Origin: Candidatus Coprousia avicola
Lineage (GTDB): Bacteria; Actinomycetota; Coriobacteriia; Coriobacteriales; Coriobacteriaceae
Assembly (NCBI GenBank): GCA_018715125.1
Contig: DVMF01000007.1
Location: 1-38,451 of the forward strand
Reading direction: 5' to 3'
DNA length: 38,451 nucleotides
Shown: positions 18,523 to 24,625 of the stretch, piece by piece
Layout of the letters: each line of letters opens with the position of its first letter
Position numbering within the stretch: the stretch's first letter is position 1
Notes under the pieces: model-generated
The model's input: only the letters and a program-made list of their open reading frames with translations
Databases searched by the model: none
What the model was told of the DNA's origin: nothing
Program-made: the position numbers and the translations under genes

Positions 18523-19980
18523 CTAGCGGTCGAGATCGGCGAGCTCGCCCAAGTCGGCGAGGTCGAGGCCGCCCGCGTCTACGAGCGTGCCCGGCCGGGC
18601 GGCCTGACCCGCATGCGTGGTGGGGATCGCCCCCGAGAGCTGCCCCGCGATGCTCTCGGCCCTGAGGGAGCAAAACGTCTCGAGCGCGTCGACGCCGGCG
18701 AGCCAGTCGTCATAGGTCACGTAGGCGGTGGGATCTTGCGCCACGTGCGGCGCGATGAGCTCGCGTGCGCGCCCGACGGTCCTCGCGACCCCGCCCGCTC
18801 CCACAAAGCCCTCGACGAGCTCCTCCAGGTAGGCGTGGTAGAGGGCACGGTAGCCGTCTCGCTCCATGAGGCGGCTGAAGAGCGGGCGCCTGGTAAGGAT
18901 GTCTGCCGCCGCCGGCTCGTCGATGGGGAGGTTGACGTAGGCGCTCGCATCGTCTGCGAGCTCCGGGCGGCCGAGGGCATAGGTTCCAAAGGCGAGGTTG
19001 TAGTCCCAAGGGAGCATCTGGATGCGCCCCTCGTCCTCATACAGCAGGTAATTGTGGCCCGTGTGGCCGAGGTAGCCGTCGAGGTTCGCCACGAATACCT
19101 GCGCGGCGAAGTAGCGAAGCGTCGCGTCCACATCGACGGCGGCCTCGACCTCGCCCGCGTCGAGCAGCCTGAGCGCGCGGATGAGCCGCGCCTCGGCCCC
19201 GGCGTCGGCGGGGGTGAGGGCCTCGTCGAAGATGCCGGGGTAGCGCGCAGGGTCATCACCCAGGTAGCAGAGCGCGACGTCGGCGTTCTCGGCCTCAAGC
19301 GAGCGGTAGTCCGGCTTGTAGAGAACGCCGTGGGACGGTCCCCATATGCGCCGCGCAAAGGCATCCTCGGGCTCCTCGACGACGAGGTAGAGGCCGATGC
19401 GCGCGCCGTTTGCACGCACCTCGGCAAAGCTCGTCGCCGGTGCGGGCACGCCGAGGTGGCGCATGAGGGCAAACGCGAGATGGGTCTTGAGATAGCTGTT
19501 GTCCTGAAACGAGGCGTCGAGCGAGAGCTTGTCGAGACCGTGGTAGGTGAGGCCGGCGCGATAGTGGTCGAACTCGACCTTCATGCTGAAGCGCGCAAGG
19601 CCCCGGCGGACCGCGTGCGAAAGCGAGTTGTTGCCCTTGGGGCGCAGGCCCGCCCCCGCGAGGCGCTCTCCATCGATGACCGCATCGACCTCGACGTATT
19701 CCTCCGCGGCGGCGTTCGCGACAAAGGCGTCCCAGTCGGCGACGGCAAGATCGATGGTGTGGACGCGCGCGTCGTCGAAGAGCCGCTCGAGGTAGCCCGT
19801 GTTGCGCGCGGGGCGGACGATGCCGGCTGCCCCGGCGGCGGCGAGTGCCGCGGTGAGGCCGAGTCCCGCGGCGAGGGCGAGAAACGCCGCGCGATCGAGC
19901 GCGCGCTCGCGGGGCCGGGCGGCGCCTCCCGGGCAGGGGCGGGCGCTTTGGGCGCCGGGGCCGTAGCGGTCCACCGTCAA
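18523..19980 (-). CDS. CotH family kinase-like protein
   Basis: A 485-residue CotH-type protein (spore-coat-like atypical kinase fold, widespread outside sporeformers). Residues 1-35 are basic, then a hydrophobic segment (AAFLALAAGLGLTAALAAAG) acts as membrane anchor or signal. The kinase-like region shows VHTIDLAVADWDAF, RPKGNNSLSHAVRR, KVEFDHY, LSLDASFQDNSYLKTHLAFA, LYLVVEEPEDAF, and the conserved NLDGYLGHTGHNYLLYE followed by MLPWDYNLAFG, where D326 is the likely metal-binding Asp. It starts with TTG in a 4-bp overlap (TTGA) with the DUF4956 stop, so it is translationally coupled. It is the last gene of the VTC operon. Its substrate is unknown; phosphorylation of an envelope component is plausible. 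Confidence 0.87.
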   Translation of the reverse strand: MTVDRYGPGAQSARPCPGGAARPRERALDRAAFLALAAGLGLTAALAAAGAAGIVRPARNTGYLERLFDDARVHTIDLAVADWDAFVANAAAEEYVEVDAVIDGERLAGAGLRPKGNNSLSHAVRRGLARFSMKVEFDHYRAGLTYHGLDKLSLDASFQDNSYLKTHLAFALMRHLGVPAPATSFAEVRANGARIGLYLVVEEPEDAFARRIWGPSHGVLYKPDYRSLEAENADVALCYLGDDPARYPGIFDEALTPADAGAEARLIRALRLLDAGEVEAAVDVDATLRYFAAQVFVANLDGYLGHTGHNYLLYEDEGRIQMLPWDYNLAFGTYALGRPELADDASAYVNLPIDEPAAADILTRRPLFSRLMERDGYRALYHAYLEELVEGFVGAGGVARTVGRARELIAPHVAQDPTAYVTYDDWLAGVDALETFCSLRAESIAGQLSGAIPTTHAGQAARPGTLVDAGGLDLADLGELADLDR

Positions 19981-20651
19981 CCCTGGTAATCGCCGTTGTA
20001 GGATACGAGCAGCGCCTCGGTTACCGCGGGCAGCGCGTCGAGCGCGGCCACGATGTCGGTTGCCCCGTCCGCGAGGCGCACCTCATAGGTGAGGTCGAGC
20101 GCGCCCGCTGCGACCTGCTTCGCCTTGAGGCTCTGGGCGCGCGTGCCCGTCTGGATGAGCGCGGTGACCTCCGCCTCGTCCGCATCGGCGCCGCAGCGCA
20201 CGACGAGGAGGTAGGGTCGGTCGTTGGCGGCGCGCCCCGTGAGCAGGAGCAGCGCGAGCCCGATGAAGATGCAGCCAAAGATCGCGAGGAAGAGCAGCCC
20301 CGCCGCGAGCACGATGCCCGTGGCGATGCACCAGAAGAGAAAGACGATGTCGAGCGGCTCTTTGACCGGCGTGCGGAAGCGCACGATGGAGAGCGCGCCC
20401 ACCATGCCGAGCGAGAGCAGCACGTTGCTCGAGACCGCGAGGATGACGAGCGTCGTCACGAGCGTGATTACCACGAGGCAGGCCCCAAAGGTCGAGGAAT
20501 AGAGGATGCCGGTGGTGGTCCTGCGGTAGATGAGGAAGATGAAGAGGCCGAGGGCGCCGGCGAGCACCATCGCCACGACCATGTCGATGAGGGGGACGGC
20601 GGTCATGCGGTCGAGAAAGGCGGAGGTGAAGATGTCGTTGAAGGTGGTCAT
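19977..20651 (-). CDS. DUF4956 membrane protein
   Basis: A 224-residue DUF4956 protein. Four hydrophobic helices fill residues about 20-140 (PLIDMVVAMVLAGALGLFIF; FGACLVVITLVTTLVILAV; IVFLFWCIATGIVLAAGLL; FLAIFGCIFIGLALLLL). They are interrupted by the family signature SLGMVGALSIVRFRTPVKEP in a cytoplasmic loop. A soluble C-terminal alpha/beta domain of about 80 residues ends at DYQG. The start has GAGGAT upstream. The family is found in many bacteria beside VTC polyphosphate polymerase and CotH genes, the arrangement seen here. The membrane domain may form a channel or scaffold for the polymer made by the VTC protein; this is inference. Confidence 0.88.
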   Translation of the reverse strand: MTTFNDIFTSAFLDRMTAVPLIDMVVAMVLAGALGLFIFLIYRRTTTGILYSSTFGACLVVITLVTTLVILAVSSNVLLSLGMVGALSIVRFRTPVKEPLDIVFLFWCIATGIVLAAGLLFLAIFGCIFIGLALLLLTGRAANDRPYLLVVRCGADADEAEVTALIQTGTRAQSLKAKQVAAGALDLTYEVRLADGATDIVAALDALPAVTEALLVSYNGDYQG

Positions 20652-20691: not shown

Positions 20692-21402
20692 CTACTCGAG
20701 GCGGCGGGCGAGGGCGTACTTGGACCATGCCGTGCGGGCCGTGCCCGGCCGGACGGCGTCGGCGACCCACGCGGGCAGGAAGGCATCGTACTTCACCTCG
20801 ACGACGGCCTCGCCGGGTGCGACGGGTACGAGCAGGCGCGCCGGGTCGAAGAGGGCTTCCGGGTGCGGGTGGGCGCGCACGTCGGTGTCGAGCGTGATGC
20901 GGACGTTGCCCGCACGGTGGAGATAGGCCTCGCGCTCGTAGGCGACGACGGTGCGCGCGACGAGGGGCTCGGCTGCCGTGAGGGCGCAGAACTCGGCGAG
21001 CACGGGGTCGAGCGGGCTGTCGGGAGGGCTGAGCGCTGCCATGAGGGAGGCGTCGGTGGGGCCCGGTGCGGCGAGCACGTAGGCCTGCTCGGGCGTGAGC
21101 GCCGCCTTCGCCTTGGTGCCCAGGCCCGCGCGCTTCACCTTCTTCTCGATCACGAAGGTGCGGGGTGCGTCGCCGGCGTCATCCGTGTACGTTCGCAGCC
21201 GCCATTTGGCGCGCCGGGAATAACCCTCGTGCCCGGCGCGGAGCGCCCCGTCTGCCGGCGTGTCGAAATAGAGGCTGCGCACGGTGTAGCGGCCGTCCGC
21301 TCCGGCGTGCGGGTCGCGGTGGAGCAGCGCGCCGAGGCGCCGTGAGAGCACGAGCGCCTCGGCGGCGGGTACCGCGAACTTGAGCTCATGGCGCGGGGTC
21401 AT
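20692..21402 (-). CDS. VTC domain polyphosphate polymerase
   Basis: A 236-residue VTC-domain protein, a tunnel-fold enzyme that polymerises phosphate from ATP into polyphosphate in yeast Vtc4 and is predicted to do so in bacteria. Core motifs visible: RHELKFAVP at the N-terminus, TVRSLYFDT, the basic RRAKWRLRTY, FVIEKKVKRAG (Glu and Lys pair), VVAYEREAYLH, VRITLDTDVR and EAVVEVKYDAF near the end. It lacks an SPX domain, a membrane segment and a signal peptide. The start is 18 bp after the RsgI-like stop. It is encoded between the RsgI-like gene and DUF4956. Pho-box-like repeats upstream of the operon fit a phosphate-linked role. Whether the product is polyphosphate or another polymer is untested. 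Confidence 0.9.
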   Translation of the reverse strand: MTPRHELKFAVPAAEALVLSRRLGALLHRDPHAGADGRYTVRSLYFDTPADGALRAGHEGYSRRAKWRLRTYTDDAGDAPRTFVIEKKVKRAGLGTKAKAALTPEQAYVLAAPGPTDASLMAALSPPDSPLDPVLAEFCALTAAEPLVARTVVAYEREAYLHRAGNVRITLDTDVRAHPHPEALFDPARLLVPVAPGEAVVEVKYDAFLPAWVADAVRPGTARTAWSKYALARRLE

Positions 21403-21420: not shown

Positions 21421-22272
21421 CTAGTCATCGTAGCCGGAGTAGCCCGAGGCGCTGTCGTAGCCGGAGTTGCTGTCGTAGCCGGAGTAACCCGAGTTGCCGC
21501 CGGATGGGGCGGGGGCGGGCGTCGGCGCGGGCGCCGGGGTGTACGTCGCGCCGCCGGACGAGGTGCCCGTCGCCGCGGGTGCCGAGCTCGCGGGTGCCGA
21601 TGCGGCGGGCGCCGAGGCGGCCGGTGCGCTCGCGGCGGGCTCGACGTAGTCGGTCACGCCGTCGTTCAGCGCACCGTAGTCGGAGTCGTAGTAGTCGGTC
21701 ACGCCGTCGTTGTCGGGGCCGTAGTCGGTGTCACCGTAATCGGTCCAGCCGTAGTTGCTCGCCCCGGTGACCGTCATGGGCGCCGTGAGGTTCTGGCTCA
21801 CCACGTAGGACTGAGAATCGTGCACGATGTTGCGCAAGAAGTCGCTTGAGGGCAGGCTCGAGCCACGCTCGACCTCGAGGCCGATGGCGTTGGTGCCCGC
21901 ACCCTCGACCTCCTCCACAAAATAGCCGGCCTCGCGGATCTTGGTGACGAGCCCCTGCACGGCGGCGCGGCACTCCTGCCCCTCATAGGAGGCGAGGTCG
22001 AGCGCCATCGCGCGGGCGTCGTCGTTGAGCTCCTCGACGCCTACGACCTTGCCCTGGGCGTCGTAGTGAATGGCGAACTCGGGATTCACGCGCAGGATGA
22101 GGGTGCCGCCACCCTCGGGGTAGGGCAGCTGCTCCTCGGCTGCGGCGGTGTCCTGAGTTGCCGGCGGCGCAGCGAGTATGCCCGTGCCCTGAGCGAGGGC
22201 GAAGCCGGCGCCGCCGCCCACGATCAGGGCGAGCAGTGTGGCGAGCAGGACGGTCAGGTTCTTGTTCGTCAT
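21421..22272 (-). CDS. RsgI-like extracytoplasmic protein with low-complexity tail
   Basis: A 283-residue exported or anchored protein. Residues 7-29 are a hydrophobic signal/anchor (VLLATLLALIVGGGAGFALA). Residues 55-170 resemble the extracytoplasmic domain of RsgI anti-sigma factors: LILRVNPEFAIHYDAQGKVV then GVEELNDDARAM. No cytoplasmic sigma-binding region is present, so it need not regulate a sigma factor. A middle section repeats TDYG/SDYG and DNDGVTDY/LNDGVTDY. After that come an AASAP repeat tract, a Pro/Thr-rich linker and a final SGYDSNSGYDS-type Tyr/Gly repeat. It is the first gene of the VTC/DUF4956/CotH operon, with AGGGGA before the start. Its job in the module may be surface sensing or polymer binding. 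Confidence 0.75.
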   Translation of the reverse strand: MTNKNLTVLLATLLALIVGGGAGFALAQGTGILAAPPATQDTAAAEEQLPYPEGGGTLILRVNPEFAIHYDAQGKVVGVEELNDDARAMALDLASYEGQECRAAVQGLVTKIREAGYFVEEVEGAGTNAIGLEVERGSSLPSSDFLRNIVHDSQSYVVSQNLTAPMTVTGASNYGWTDYGDTDYGPDNDGVTDYYDSDYGALNDGVTDYVEPAASAPAASAPAASAPASSAPAATGTSSGGATYTPAPAPTPAPAPSGGNSGYSGYDSNSGYDSASGYSGYDD

Positions 22273-22326
22273 GGCGGTCCCCTATTGTCCGATAACGTGT
22301 CGAGGCGGAGTGCCTCCTTGTCGATC

Positions 22327-22367
22327 GGCTCCCCGCGTGCGGGAGTCGGTCGCCCGGAAGGGGAGCC
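22327..22367 (-). promoter_or_regulatory. Leader hairpin of the VTC operon
   Basis: GGCTCCCC (22327-22334) pairs with GGGGAGCC (22360-22367), enclosing an inner CCGG-type stem, in the 5' untranslated region about 55-95 bp before the RsgI-like start. Role unknown. Confidence 0.4.
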
Positions 22368-22413
22368 TGACTCTCTTGTACCATGCCGCCGCCGGCATAT
22401 TGACGAAAACGCC

Positions 22414-22463
22414 GTAAGTGTTATGTAAGGTGCGGTGCTCGTTCTGTAAGGTTCGCGTAAGGT
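22414..22463. promoter_or_regulatory. Pho-box-like direct repeats upstream of the VTC operon
   Basis: GTAAG occurs at 22414, 22425, 22446 and 22457, that is two pairs with 11-bp spacing, 21 bp apart, all on one helix face. On the minus strand the repeat reads ACCTTAC or ACACTTAC. This resembles the 11-bp-spaced TTAC/TTAACA repeats bound by PhoB/PhoP-type response regulators. A possible -10 (CAATAT on the minus strand, near 22397-22402) lies about 11 bp beyond the last repeat. The region 22470-22650 is GC-rich and otherwise featureless. Confidence 0.5.
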
Positions 22464-22651
22464 GCGCGTTCGCCGAGTGCTCGCGACCGCCCGCCGATTT
22501 GACAAGCGGATACGGGCGCGCCGCCGCGGGCATCCGGCGCGGCCACTGAGGGTGCGCCGGGCGGCGCCCGTGGGTACCATGAGGGCAACGCATGCGCCGC
22601 GCGCGGACGCAAGGTCCCCGGCGCGGCCGATTTCGACAGGAGGGCTCGCCC

Positions 22652-23404
22652 ATGGCAGACAACGACACGCGCGAGGCGGGGGAGCGCACCTACTACCGCG
22701 GTCCCGTGATGATGCGCGGCCGCATGATCCCCACCGACAACACCTACGCCAACCTGCTCGCCCCGGAGAAATCGACCGACTGGCTGCACATGGACCCCTG
22801 GCGGGTGCTGCGGATCCAGGCGGAGTTCGTGGACGGCTTCGGCGCGCTCGCCGAGGTGGGCCCCGCGGTCGCCATCTTCGGCTCGGCGCGCACGCAGCCG
22901 GACGACCCCATGTACGCGGCCGCGCGCGAGACGGGGCGGCTTCTTGCCGAGCGGGGAGTCGCCACCATGACGGGCGGCGGCCCCGGCATCATGGAGGCGG
23001 CCAACCGCGGCGCGGCGGAGGCGGACGGCACCTCCATCGGTCTGGGGATCGAGCTCCCGCACGAGCAGGAGCTCAACCGCTGGGTCAACCTCGGCATGAC
23101 CTTCCGCTACTTCTTCGTCCGCAAGACCATGTTCGTCAAGTATTCGGACGGCGCGATCGTCTTCCCGGGCGGCTTCGGCACGCTCGACGAGCTCTTCGAG
23201 CTCCTCACCCTCGTCCAGACGCACAAGGTCGCCCGCACGCCGGTGGTGCTTATAGGGTCCGACTACTGGCGGGGGCTCTTCGATTGGATCGACGGGGTGC
23301 TCCGCGGCGAGGGCATGATCTCTGAGCTCGACCCCAAGCTCGTGCATATTACCGATGAGGTCGCCGAGGCCGTCGCGCTCGCCACGAGCGGCATCGGGCG
23401 GTAG
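22652..23404 (+). CDS. LOG family protein (TIGR00730 Rossmann fold nucleosidase)
   Basis: A 250-residue LOG-family (lonely-guy-like, TIGR00730) protein, which removes ribose 5-phosphate from nucleoside monophosphates. Motifs: VAIFGSARTQPDD, the nucleotide-binding TGGGPGIMEAANRGA (about residue 108) and the catalytic PGGFGTLDELFE (about 171-182). A 60-residue N-terminal extension precedes the fold. CAGGAGGG stands 8 bases before the ATG at 22652. In bacteria these enzymes are usually nucleotide 5'-monophosphate nucleosidases, not cytokinin enzymes. The poly(ADP-ribose) glycohydrolase-like gene follows 186 bp downstream on the same strand; both act on nucleotide N-glycosidic or ribose links, but a joint pathway is only a guess. 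Confidence 0.9.
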   Translation: MADNDTREAGERTYYRGPVMMRGRMIPTDNTYANLLAPEKSTDWLHMDPWRVLRIQAEFVDGFGALAEVGPAVAIFGSARTQPDDPMYAAARETGRLLAERGVATMTGGGPGIMEAANRGAAEADGTSIGLGIELPHEQELNRWVNLGMTFRYFFVRKTMFVKYSDGAIVFPGGFGTLDELFELLTLVQTHKVARTPVVLIGSDYWRGLFDWIDGVLRGEGMISELDPKLVHITDEVAEAVALATSGIGR

Positions 23405-23590
23405 GCGCGCGGCCGGGCGTTCGCGCGGCAGGCCGCCATGGCGCCGGCGCTCACACCGCCGCGGCCGTTGCGGAGGGCGGCGCGCCGCGGGCGACGGCGC
23501 CTTGGCCAAAGGCCGATTTCTCGGTCGGATGCCGGACGGTTTGGCCTACGATGGATGCCGAACGCGATACCGACGGCGAAAGGTGAGGCT

Positions 23591-24625
23591 ATGGCTGACG
23601 AGAGAAGCGGACGGCGACAGGGCGGCAGGCAGAACCCGCGGCGCGAGGGGCGCGCCCGCGCGGCTGAGCGGCATACGGCCGAGGTCGCCGGGCGCCTGGC
23701 GAAAGACATCGAGCGCTCGCTCGGCGGGGTCAAGCGCTATGACAGCGCACCCAAGGTGAAGGTGCCGGCCGCGCCCGCGCCCGTCGCCGAGGAGCCGGCT
23801 GAGGCGGCGGCGCTCGAGGTCACGGCGACCGAGCCGGCCGAGGCCGCGGCGCCCGAGACGGCCGCGCCCGCGTTGCCCCAGGTGAGTGTTGTCGACGCCG
23901 ATTCCGTGGCGGCCGTGCTCGAGAACGGCCGCGGGTACGCGCAGTTCTGCGACCTCGCGCTCCTCGACTTCGCGAGCTTCGTCAACCCGGGTGGCGGCTA
24001 TATCCGCGGCGCCTGGGCGCAGGAGGAGGCGCTCTGCGCGGAGTCGTACCTCTACAACGTGCTCGAAGAGCAGCGCGCGTGGTACCAGGAGAACCGCCGC
24101 CGCAACATCAACTGCGAGCTCTACCGCGACCGCGCGCTCGTCGTGCCGGCCGTGCGCTTCGAGCGGGGCAAGATGCACGCCTACGCCGACGTCATCGTCG
24201 CCGCCGCGCCCAACGCCCGGCGCGCCCGCGAGGAGTACCACGTGACCGACGAGCAGCTCGAGCGCGCCCTGCGCGACCGGATCCGCCTCGTGCTCGCCAT
24301 CGTCGACGACCTGGGGCGCGAGAAGGTCGTGCTCGGCGCATGGGGCTGCGGCGTCTTTGGATGGGACGCCGAGCAGGTGGCCGAGGCCTTCCGCCAAGAG
24401 CTCGCCTCTGGCCGGTGGGGCGTCAAGCAGGTGATCTTCGCCGTGCCGCAGACGCGCTACGACGACAACCTCGCCCAGTTCCGCCACGTTCTCGGCGCCT
24501 TCCCCACCGCGCCGGCGCAAAGCTATGCCGAGGCCTCTGCCAAGGCCGCCCAGGCGCGCGCCGCCGAGGAGGCCGCCCGCGCGGACGATGAGGATGAAGA
24601 CGACGATTGGCGCAAGTATCTCTAA
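23591..24625 (+). CDS. TIGR02452 family protein, bacterial poly(ADP-ribose) glycohydrolase-like
   Basis: A 344-residue protein with the macrodomain-type glycohydrolase signature GGG-x7-QEE at residues 134-146 (NPGGGYIRGAWAQEE); the Glu pair E145/E146 is the catalytic feature of poly(ADP-ribose) glycohydrolases. Further family blocks: AESYLYN, YRDRALVVPAVRFERG, the DVIVAAAPNARRA strand, VLGAWGCGVFGWDAEQVAEA and VIFAVPQTRYDDNL. Residues 1-40 are strongly basic (RSGRRQGGRQNPRREGRARA), and 60-95 form an Ala/Pro/Glu linker. The last 40 residues are acidic (DDEDEDDDWRKYL). The N-terminal extension is longer than usual and may bind nucleic acid. The start at 23591 follows AAAGGTGA. No ADP-ribosyltransferase gene is visible nearby. 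Confidence 0.85.
   Translation: MADERSGRRQGGRQNPRREGRARAAERHTAEVAGRLAKDIERSLGGVKRYDSAPKVKVPAAPAPVAEEPAEAAALEVTATEPAEAAAPETAAPALPQVSVVDADSVAAVLENGRGYAQFCDLALLDFASFVNPGGGYIRGAWAQEEALCAESYLYNVLEEQRAWYQENRRRNINCELYRDRALVVPAVRFERGKMHAYADVIVAAAPNARRAREEYHVTDEQLERALRDRIRLVLAIVDDLGREKVVLGAWGCGVFGWDAEQVAEAFRQELASGRWGVKQVIFAVPQTRYDDNLAQFRHVLGAFPTAPAQSYAEASAKAAQARAAEEAARADDEDEDDDWRKYL

Follow-up and report, generated by a model that had tools for sequence, protein, structure and literature searches.

Gene organisation of the locus

The window, by which we mean the whole stretch of 38,451 nucleotides that was analysed (contig C73 of a 2.42 Mb genome in 93 contigs), contains four minus-strand genes. The original prediction described these as an RsgI-like/VTC/DUF4956/CotH operon lying downstream of a set of direct repeats, and this description holds, with all four Pfam matches exceeding the curated cut-offs.

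21421..22272, minus strand: gene 1, N-terminal hydrophobic segment with an RsgI_M domain (Pfam PF23750, 1.4e-9)
20692..21402, minus strand: gene 2, VTC-domain, polyphosphate-polymerase-like triphosphate-tunnel protein (Pfam PF09359, 1.3e-27)
19977..20651, minus strand: gene 3, DUF4956 membrane protein (Pfam PF16316, 5.6e-9)
18523..19980, minus strand: gene 4, CotH-kinase-like protein (Pfam PF08757, 1.5e-54), with a 4-bp overlap with gene 3

A cytoplasmic anti-sigma domain was not found in gene 1. The organism is Collinsella-like: the operon is arranged alike in Collinsella sp. An268, in which the VTC protein is 94% identical.

A phmmer search with the VTC protein gave no match among PDB sequences, and a fold search was therefore carried out. 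The predicted model (pLDDT 81.6) gave Vtc4 and Vtc2 as its best matches, with a Z of 17.6 and an rmsd of 3.2 over 224 residues against yeast Vtc4. Comparison of seven homologues, which share 34–94% identity with the window protein, showed that the putative basic and acidic tunnel residues R4, E6, K8, K66, R68, R70, E86, K88, R157, R168, E202 and K204 are invariant, as are S227 and K228. As modelled, gene 2 encodes a VTC domain with the tunnel fold and is a putative polyphosphate polymerase. Whilst the yeast polyphosphate polymerase Vtc4 (3G3Q/3G3R) is the best match for its predicted fold, the window protein is without an SPX domain, is ∼20% identical in sequence and is only putatively active.

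The repeats occupy 22414–22463, between the RsgI_M gene (start codon 22270–22272, minus strand) and a divergent LOG-family gene. The plus strand here reads GTAAGTGTTAT GTAAGGTGCGGTGCTCGTTCT GTAAGGTTCGC GTAAGGT, and can be divided into two pairs.

22414..22431, plus strand: candidate Pho-box pair A, the one nearer the VTC operon, composed of GTAAGTG (22414) and GTAAGGT (22425), an exact GTAAGN6GTAAGGT
22446..22463, plus strand: candidate Pho-box pair B, distal, GTAAGGTTCGCGTAAGGT
22592..23404, plus strand: LOG-family (TIGR00730) gene, divergent, the neighbour at which the repeats point

The four GTAAG units start at 22414, 22425, 22446 and 22457, in agreement with the predicted 11, 21 and 11 bp spacing, although the middle interval corresponds to two turns of the helix and is not an exact multiple of 11. 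The LOG-family gene is adjoined by a gene for a PARG-like/macro-domain protein (window 23438–24625), a pairing which is kept in relatives.

The sequence GTAAGN6GTAAGGT has two matches in the window, both of them at 22414–22463, compared with a mean of 0.00 in 100 dinucleotide-preserving shuffles of the window. Over the whole genome the shorter GTAAGN6GTAAG was found 10 times, against 2 for a backward-read control, and four of the ten are the PiT and VTC boxes. The other GTAAG pairs in this genome (before dnaB on C24, before dnaJ on C72, and on C23, C26, C77 and C85) show no conservation as far as seen, and we do not put them forward as Pho boxes.

The repeats are shared with phosphate genes

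The original prediction proposed looking for the same 11-bp repeat before the pst and pho genes of the same genome, and the repeat is indeed there, as a triple copy at one operon and in weaker form at two others. Between rnpB and a PiT (PF01384)/DUF47 operon on C15, a triple repeat, GTAAGGC-N4-GTAAGGT-N4-GTAAGCT, runs in the same direction as the operon; it directly follows the 3' side of the gene for RNase P RNA (L029 5844–6249, minus strand). The pstSCAB operon, found via PF12849 on C73, is preceded by four GTAA units in 11-bp register which extend to GATAAG, and its strongest box pair scores 15.2 bits. The pstS boxes of the window match only moderately. Before a pstB-phoB-phoR operon on C76 there is a box of 14.8 bits, inverted and 32 bp from TACCAT. 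This last box (L032 9596–9613, minus strand) lies where an ABC ATPase gene and the second pstB diverge; pstB is present twice in the genome, once in pstSCAB and once with the phoB-like and phoR-like genes. A further triple GTAAGG-type repeat is found directly before a tyrosine-phosphatase-family gene (PF13350) on C82 (L024 5956–5984, minus strand), which from its sequence context is likely to be another member of the Pho regulon.

These observations were extended to a sample of 65 Coriobacteriaceae genomes. When at most one mismatch was allowed, matches preceded pstS in two genomes (G044 and G045) and PiT in seven (G034, G045, G046, G047, G049, G054 and G000), and in all there were 33 family matches versus 9 for the backward control. 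A matrix was built from 38 boxes taken from 30 pstS and 30 PiT loci; its informative positions are ATT-GTAAGG and, at a distance of exactly 11 bp, another GTAAG unit. The window repeats agree with what defines a Pho box, being direct repeats with an 11-bp unit spacing, and the 38-site matrix has GTAAG at both units. With the matrix trained on pst and PiT boxes only, pair B scores 23.8 bits and pair A 8.5 bits. Pair A is retained in G049, and is present as GTAAGGG..GTAAGCT in G050 and G054.

When the matrix was trained on PiT boxes only, at least 10 bits were reached by 30/30 pstS promoters and by all eight RsgI-headed VTC promoters of the family, compared with 0/14 other VTC loci, 0/14 LOG control promoters and 0/500 random windows, it being noted that the 10-bit threshold was picked after the scores were seen and that the genomes are not independent. 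Conservation before the VTC operons of sister species, on which the original prediction was also to be judged, is thus seen throughout the RsgI-headed set of the family. A matrix from the pstS boxes only (11 boxes) performed less well, recovering 23/30 PiT and 4/8 RsgI-VTC promoters and also one of the 14 other VTC loci. A sequence-derived Pho-box matrix usable for Coriobacteriia is provided by this analysis; no paper describing one turned up in searches for the Collinsella Pho regulon and for PhoB or phosphate starvation in Coriobacteriia.

Outside the family, an inverted box precedes the RsgI-VTC-DUF4956-CotH operon in Slackia (21.4 and 18.3 bits) and the RsgI-headed VTC operons of G079 and G220 (13.5 and 13.7 bits) and G362 (10.4 bits), with no clear box at the RsgI-headed operons of G331 and G114. 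The box persists in Slackia and in a further family. Shuffled sequence of AT-rich genomes sometimes reaches 14–18 bits over 1500 bp, so single weak matches such as that in G362 mean little alone. Overall, at least 10 bits were reached by 14/16 RsgI-headed operons and by 0/28 other VTC operons (Fisher p = 1e-9, with related genomes and a post hoc threshold). By comparison of these promoters, the RsgI-VTC operon is very probably a new, lineage- or order-wide member of the Pho regulon, in which the placement of the box is unusual but the kind of system is not new. Collinsella-family genomes also contain VTC loci of a second type (L071–L086), which do not have the RsgI head and have no Pho box, and some of these loci are preceded by a large same-strand upstream gene. 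To judge from these upstream regions, the enzyme family is the same in this second type but is controlled differently.

The box is associated with the VTC operon and not with LOG

As the plus-strand repeats point to the LOG gene (22592) and away from the VTC operon, it was necessary to test which gene they serve. If the box controlled LOG, with VTC as a bystander, GTAAGGT would be written towards its target in the same orientation as at pstS, and this is the one feature that speaks for such an arrangement. In G050 and G054, however, an HTH gene is inserted between the box and LOG; the 11-21-11 box pairs stay at the head of the RsgI-VTC operon, and the sequence just ahead of LOG does not score above 4.7 bits. 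Three genomes with LOG but without VTC (G048, G053 and G055) have no box there (−8.8 to 1.8 bits), none of 14 LOG promoters of another genus has one, and the Slackia box is also at the RsgI-VTC operon. LOG was therefore rejected as the main target, and we regard control of LOG by the box as very improbable. Judged by this distribution, it is the VTC operon to which the box should be assigned.

Promoter geometry

A predicted core promoter was located between the box and gene 1.

22375..22383, minus strand: predicted extended −10 of the RsgI-VTC operon, TGgTACAAG, 33 bp from the edge of pair A, from sequence comparison

Eight RsgI-VTC promoters were compared. The distance from the edge of the box to the −10 is 33 bp in two (G000 and G049) and 34 bp in the other six; the −10 reads TGnTATAAG, TGnTACATA or CTACACT in six relatives, is extended (TGn) in 7/8 promoters, and is not accompanied by a good −35. 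In all eight the box is written against the direction of the VTC operon, opposite to its orientation at pstS. The canonical position, in which the box replaces the −35 and reaches the −10, is present at the pstS promoters and at several PiT promoters but not at the VTC promoters, where the box is inverted and lies 33–34 bp above the −10. In the window's genus the PiT boxes themselves have the same direction as the gene; in genera g3 and g6 they have the opposite one. By these comparisons, box orientation is not fixed in the Coriobacterial system. The PiT promoters of g3 and g6 (L128–L149) have an upstream inverted pair together with a weaker sense pair that abuts the −10.

In E. coli, PhoB-activated promoters have a strict spacing between the pho box and the core promoter (PMC10294691). 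The non-canonical position of the VTC box makes textbook class-II activation harder to claim, though it does not weaken the claim that this is a binding site. With three turns separating the box from the −10, contact between the regulator and RNA polymerase cannot be quite the same as at pstS; contact with the alpha subunit is a possible alternative, as is repression.

Regulator and proposed mechanism

There are 11 strong matches to OmpR-type DNA-binding domains in the genome. One of these is in the C76 operon, which consists of pstB, the OmpR-type regulator and a HisKA kinase. The best NCBIfam match for the regulator is TIGR02154, PhoB (1.5e-64; 217 bits, below the curated cut-off of 296), and the best matches for the kinase are PnpS/PhoR, also below the curated cut-offs. 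From this gene context we infer that the PhoB-like protein of the pstB-phoB-phoR operon is the regulator.

Taking the promoter comparisons together, we think it highly likely that 22414–22463 is a Pho box, made up of two tandem two-unit PhoB/PhoP-type sites, which controls the RsgI_M-VTC-DUF4956-CotH operon. The operon very probably takes part in the phosphate-starvation response, because its repeats are the same site that also fronts phosphate-uptake genes. The proposed tie between the VTC module and phosphate state is therefore well supported, the box being common to the pstS, PiT and phoBR promoters and conserved before RsgI-VTC. That the operon would be induced by starvation we can only infer, since the box has a reversed orientation and lies at a greater distance from the −10 than in the textbook case. 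If the site is a true one, activation seems likely. In such a scheme, PhoR would phosphorylate PhoB at low phosphate, dimers of phosphorylated PhoB would bind the 11-bp repeats head to tail, and the protein, held at a fixed position 33–34 bp above the extended −10, would recruit RNA polymerase and raise transcription of the VTC operon. A leader that sequesters the ribosome-binding site may then form a second layer.

A true Pho box could also act in the opposite sense, with PhoB repressing or fine-tuning the operon such that polyphosphate synthesis is off when phosphate is scarce. We give this a real though clearly smaller chance. Polyphosphate synthesis during starvation is of no obvious use, the box orientation differs from that of pstS in all eight family promoters, and PhoB can repress as well as activate, according to the position of its site (PMC10294691). 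Against repression, the box is upstream of the −10 and not over or downstream of it, inverted pairs are also found upstream of PiT in g3 and g6, and a similar inverted layout with near-equal spacing is present at pstB-phoBR. Operons of the phoBR type are usually self-activated in Pho systems. It is improbable, in our view, that another OmpR-family regulator (for example of MtrA, envelope or nitrogen type) binds GTAAG and co-controls pst, PiT, sigI-rsgI and VTC. The eleven strong effector domains leave room for such a protein, and in relatives the box is also found before a sigma-factor/RsgI operon, with a possible envelope link, yet the recurrent partners of the box are the phosphate genes pstS, PiT and pstB-phoB-phoR, and the PhoB-like regulator shares its operon with pstB and a PhoR-like kinase.

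There is, finally, little to be said for repeats that arose by chance or that are bound without consequence. Most intragenic PhoB sites in E. coli are transcriptionally inert (PMC10294691), but the box here is intergenic and operon-specific, the pattern is absent from the shuffles, and it is conserved across genera at a fixed distance from the −10. Pure chance as the origin of the repeats is already contradicted, and we consider the combined alternative scarcely credible compared with a functional Pho box.

The boxed sigma-factor operons (Sigma70_r2, RsgI_M) lie after ligA, and the inverted box was seen in four genomes (L053/G044, L067/G034, L070/G045 and L197/G050). As both this operon and the first gene of the VTC operon encode RsgI_M, there is a hint of a link between phosphate and the envelope.

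Comparison with known systems

The unit of the E. coli pho box is of the CTGTCAT type, and the unit here, GTAAGGT, is not. The two systems are alike in having at least two direct repeats, spaced by one turn of the helix, before pst and pho genes, and in the PhoB-like OmpR-family regulator and PhoR-like kinase, which here are encoded beside pstB. The direct repeats of the E. coli box are bound head to tail by PhoB dimers, as in the 1GXP complex (PMC3348028). The VTC box differs from it in being inverted and 33–34 bp above the −10, whereas the pstS boxes of this system run up to the −10. PhoP boxes of Bacillus subtilis are TTAACA-type hexamers ∼11 bp apart. On the operon strand the Coriobacterial repeat reads (C)CTTACA with 11-bp spacing, close to the TTAACA type, although clade and consensus are different and the likeness is one of sequence.

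The CotH/polyphosphate polymerase/DUF4956 combination has been reported to accompany Gram-positive Pel loci as an accessory module, with examples from streptococci, clostridia and bifidobacteria (PMC7112168), and VTC and CotH genes are close together at a locus of Clostridium perfringens (PMC2879425). The same three-gene module is present in the window, but here an RsgI_M-domain gene and a candidate Pho box stand at its head, and none of the neighbouring genes examined was identified as a pel gene. The protein upstream at L231 was considered as a PelG and rejected, being an AMP-binding enzyme. Our search of the open-access literature, with subscription journals outside its scope, found no paper linking the bacterial VTC/CotH/DUF4956 module to the Pho regulon and no description of a Collinsella Pho box. 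The module recurs in Gram-positives, for example beside pel genes (PMC7112168), without an assigned role. The candidate Pho box would place the RsgI-headed Coriobacteriia version in the phosphate response, giving a growth condition under which its product can be sought, and a candidate leader RNA is added for testing.

A conserved candidate leader in the RsgI-VTC mRNA

Between the predicted −10 and the start codon of gene 1, the mRNA would carry a conserved 5' leader.

22273..22372, minus strand: RsgI-VTC mRNA 5' leader, conserved, predicted to be structured
22327..22355, minus strand: leader core GGGCGACCGACTCCC..GGGGAGCC, from pattern search

Directly below the −10, all RsgI-VTC promoters of the family are followed by GGCTnCCC(C)...GACCGACT..., then by a hairpin that varies and, ahead of the ATG, by AGGGG(A/U). 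The core pattern was found once in each of 8/396 sampled class genomes, always before the RsgI-VTC operon, and in none of the other 388. Searching Rfam gave no match above threshold, the best being sroE (16.3 bits, against a gathering threshold of 51) and M23, each of which lay on the wrong strand.

In the window leader, a 5' arm UCCCCU (22359–22364) is predicted to pair with the Shine–Dalgarno AGGGGA (22278–22283). This pairing is present in most of the folded leaders, with G051 and G052 preferring to pair the same arm with GGGGAGCC, and the pairing probability of the Shine–Dalgarno GGGG is 0.65–1.0 in eight leaders. Folding z-scores are −1.7 to −3.6 for the trimmed leaders and −0.9 for the longer window leader. 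The helices were counted by hand, because MAFFT alignments of the leader misplace them. In these hand-drawn helices, and with few independent sequences, one pair of the Shine–Dalgarno helix H1 is changed on both sides (UA/AU, GU), P2 has UA for CG, and P3 varies in sequence whilst keeping its hairpin. Sequestration of the Shine–Dalgarno by the leader is thus suggested by the predicted folds. A fuller scheme, which we put forward as speculative and rather unlikely, has two stacked controls: the inverted PhoB box three turns from the extended −10, and a leader that hides the Shine–Dalgarno and switches between this pairing and that with GGGGAGCC, the two being mutually exclusive, so that it would serve as a riboswitch sensing phosphate or a ligand, or would be targeted by a protein. 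Were such two-layer control to operate, the enzyme would be made only when both layers agree.
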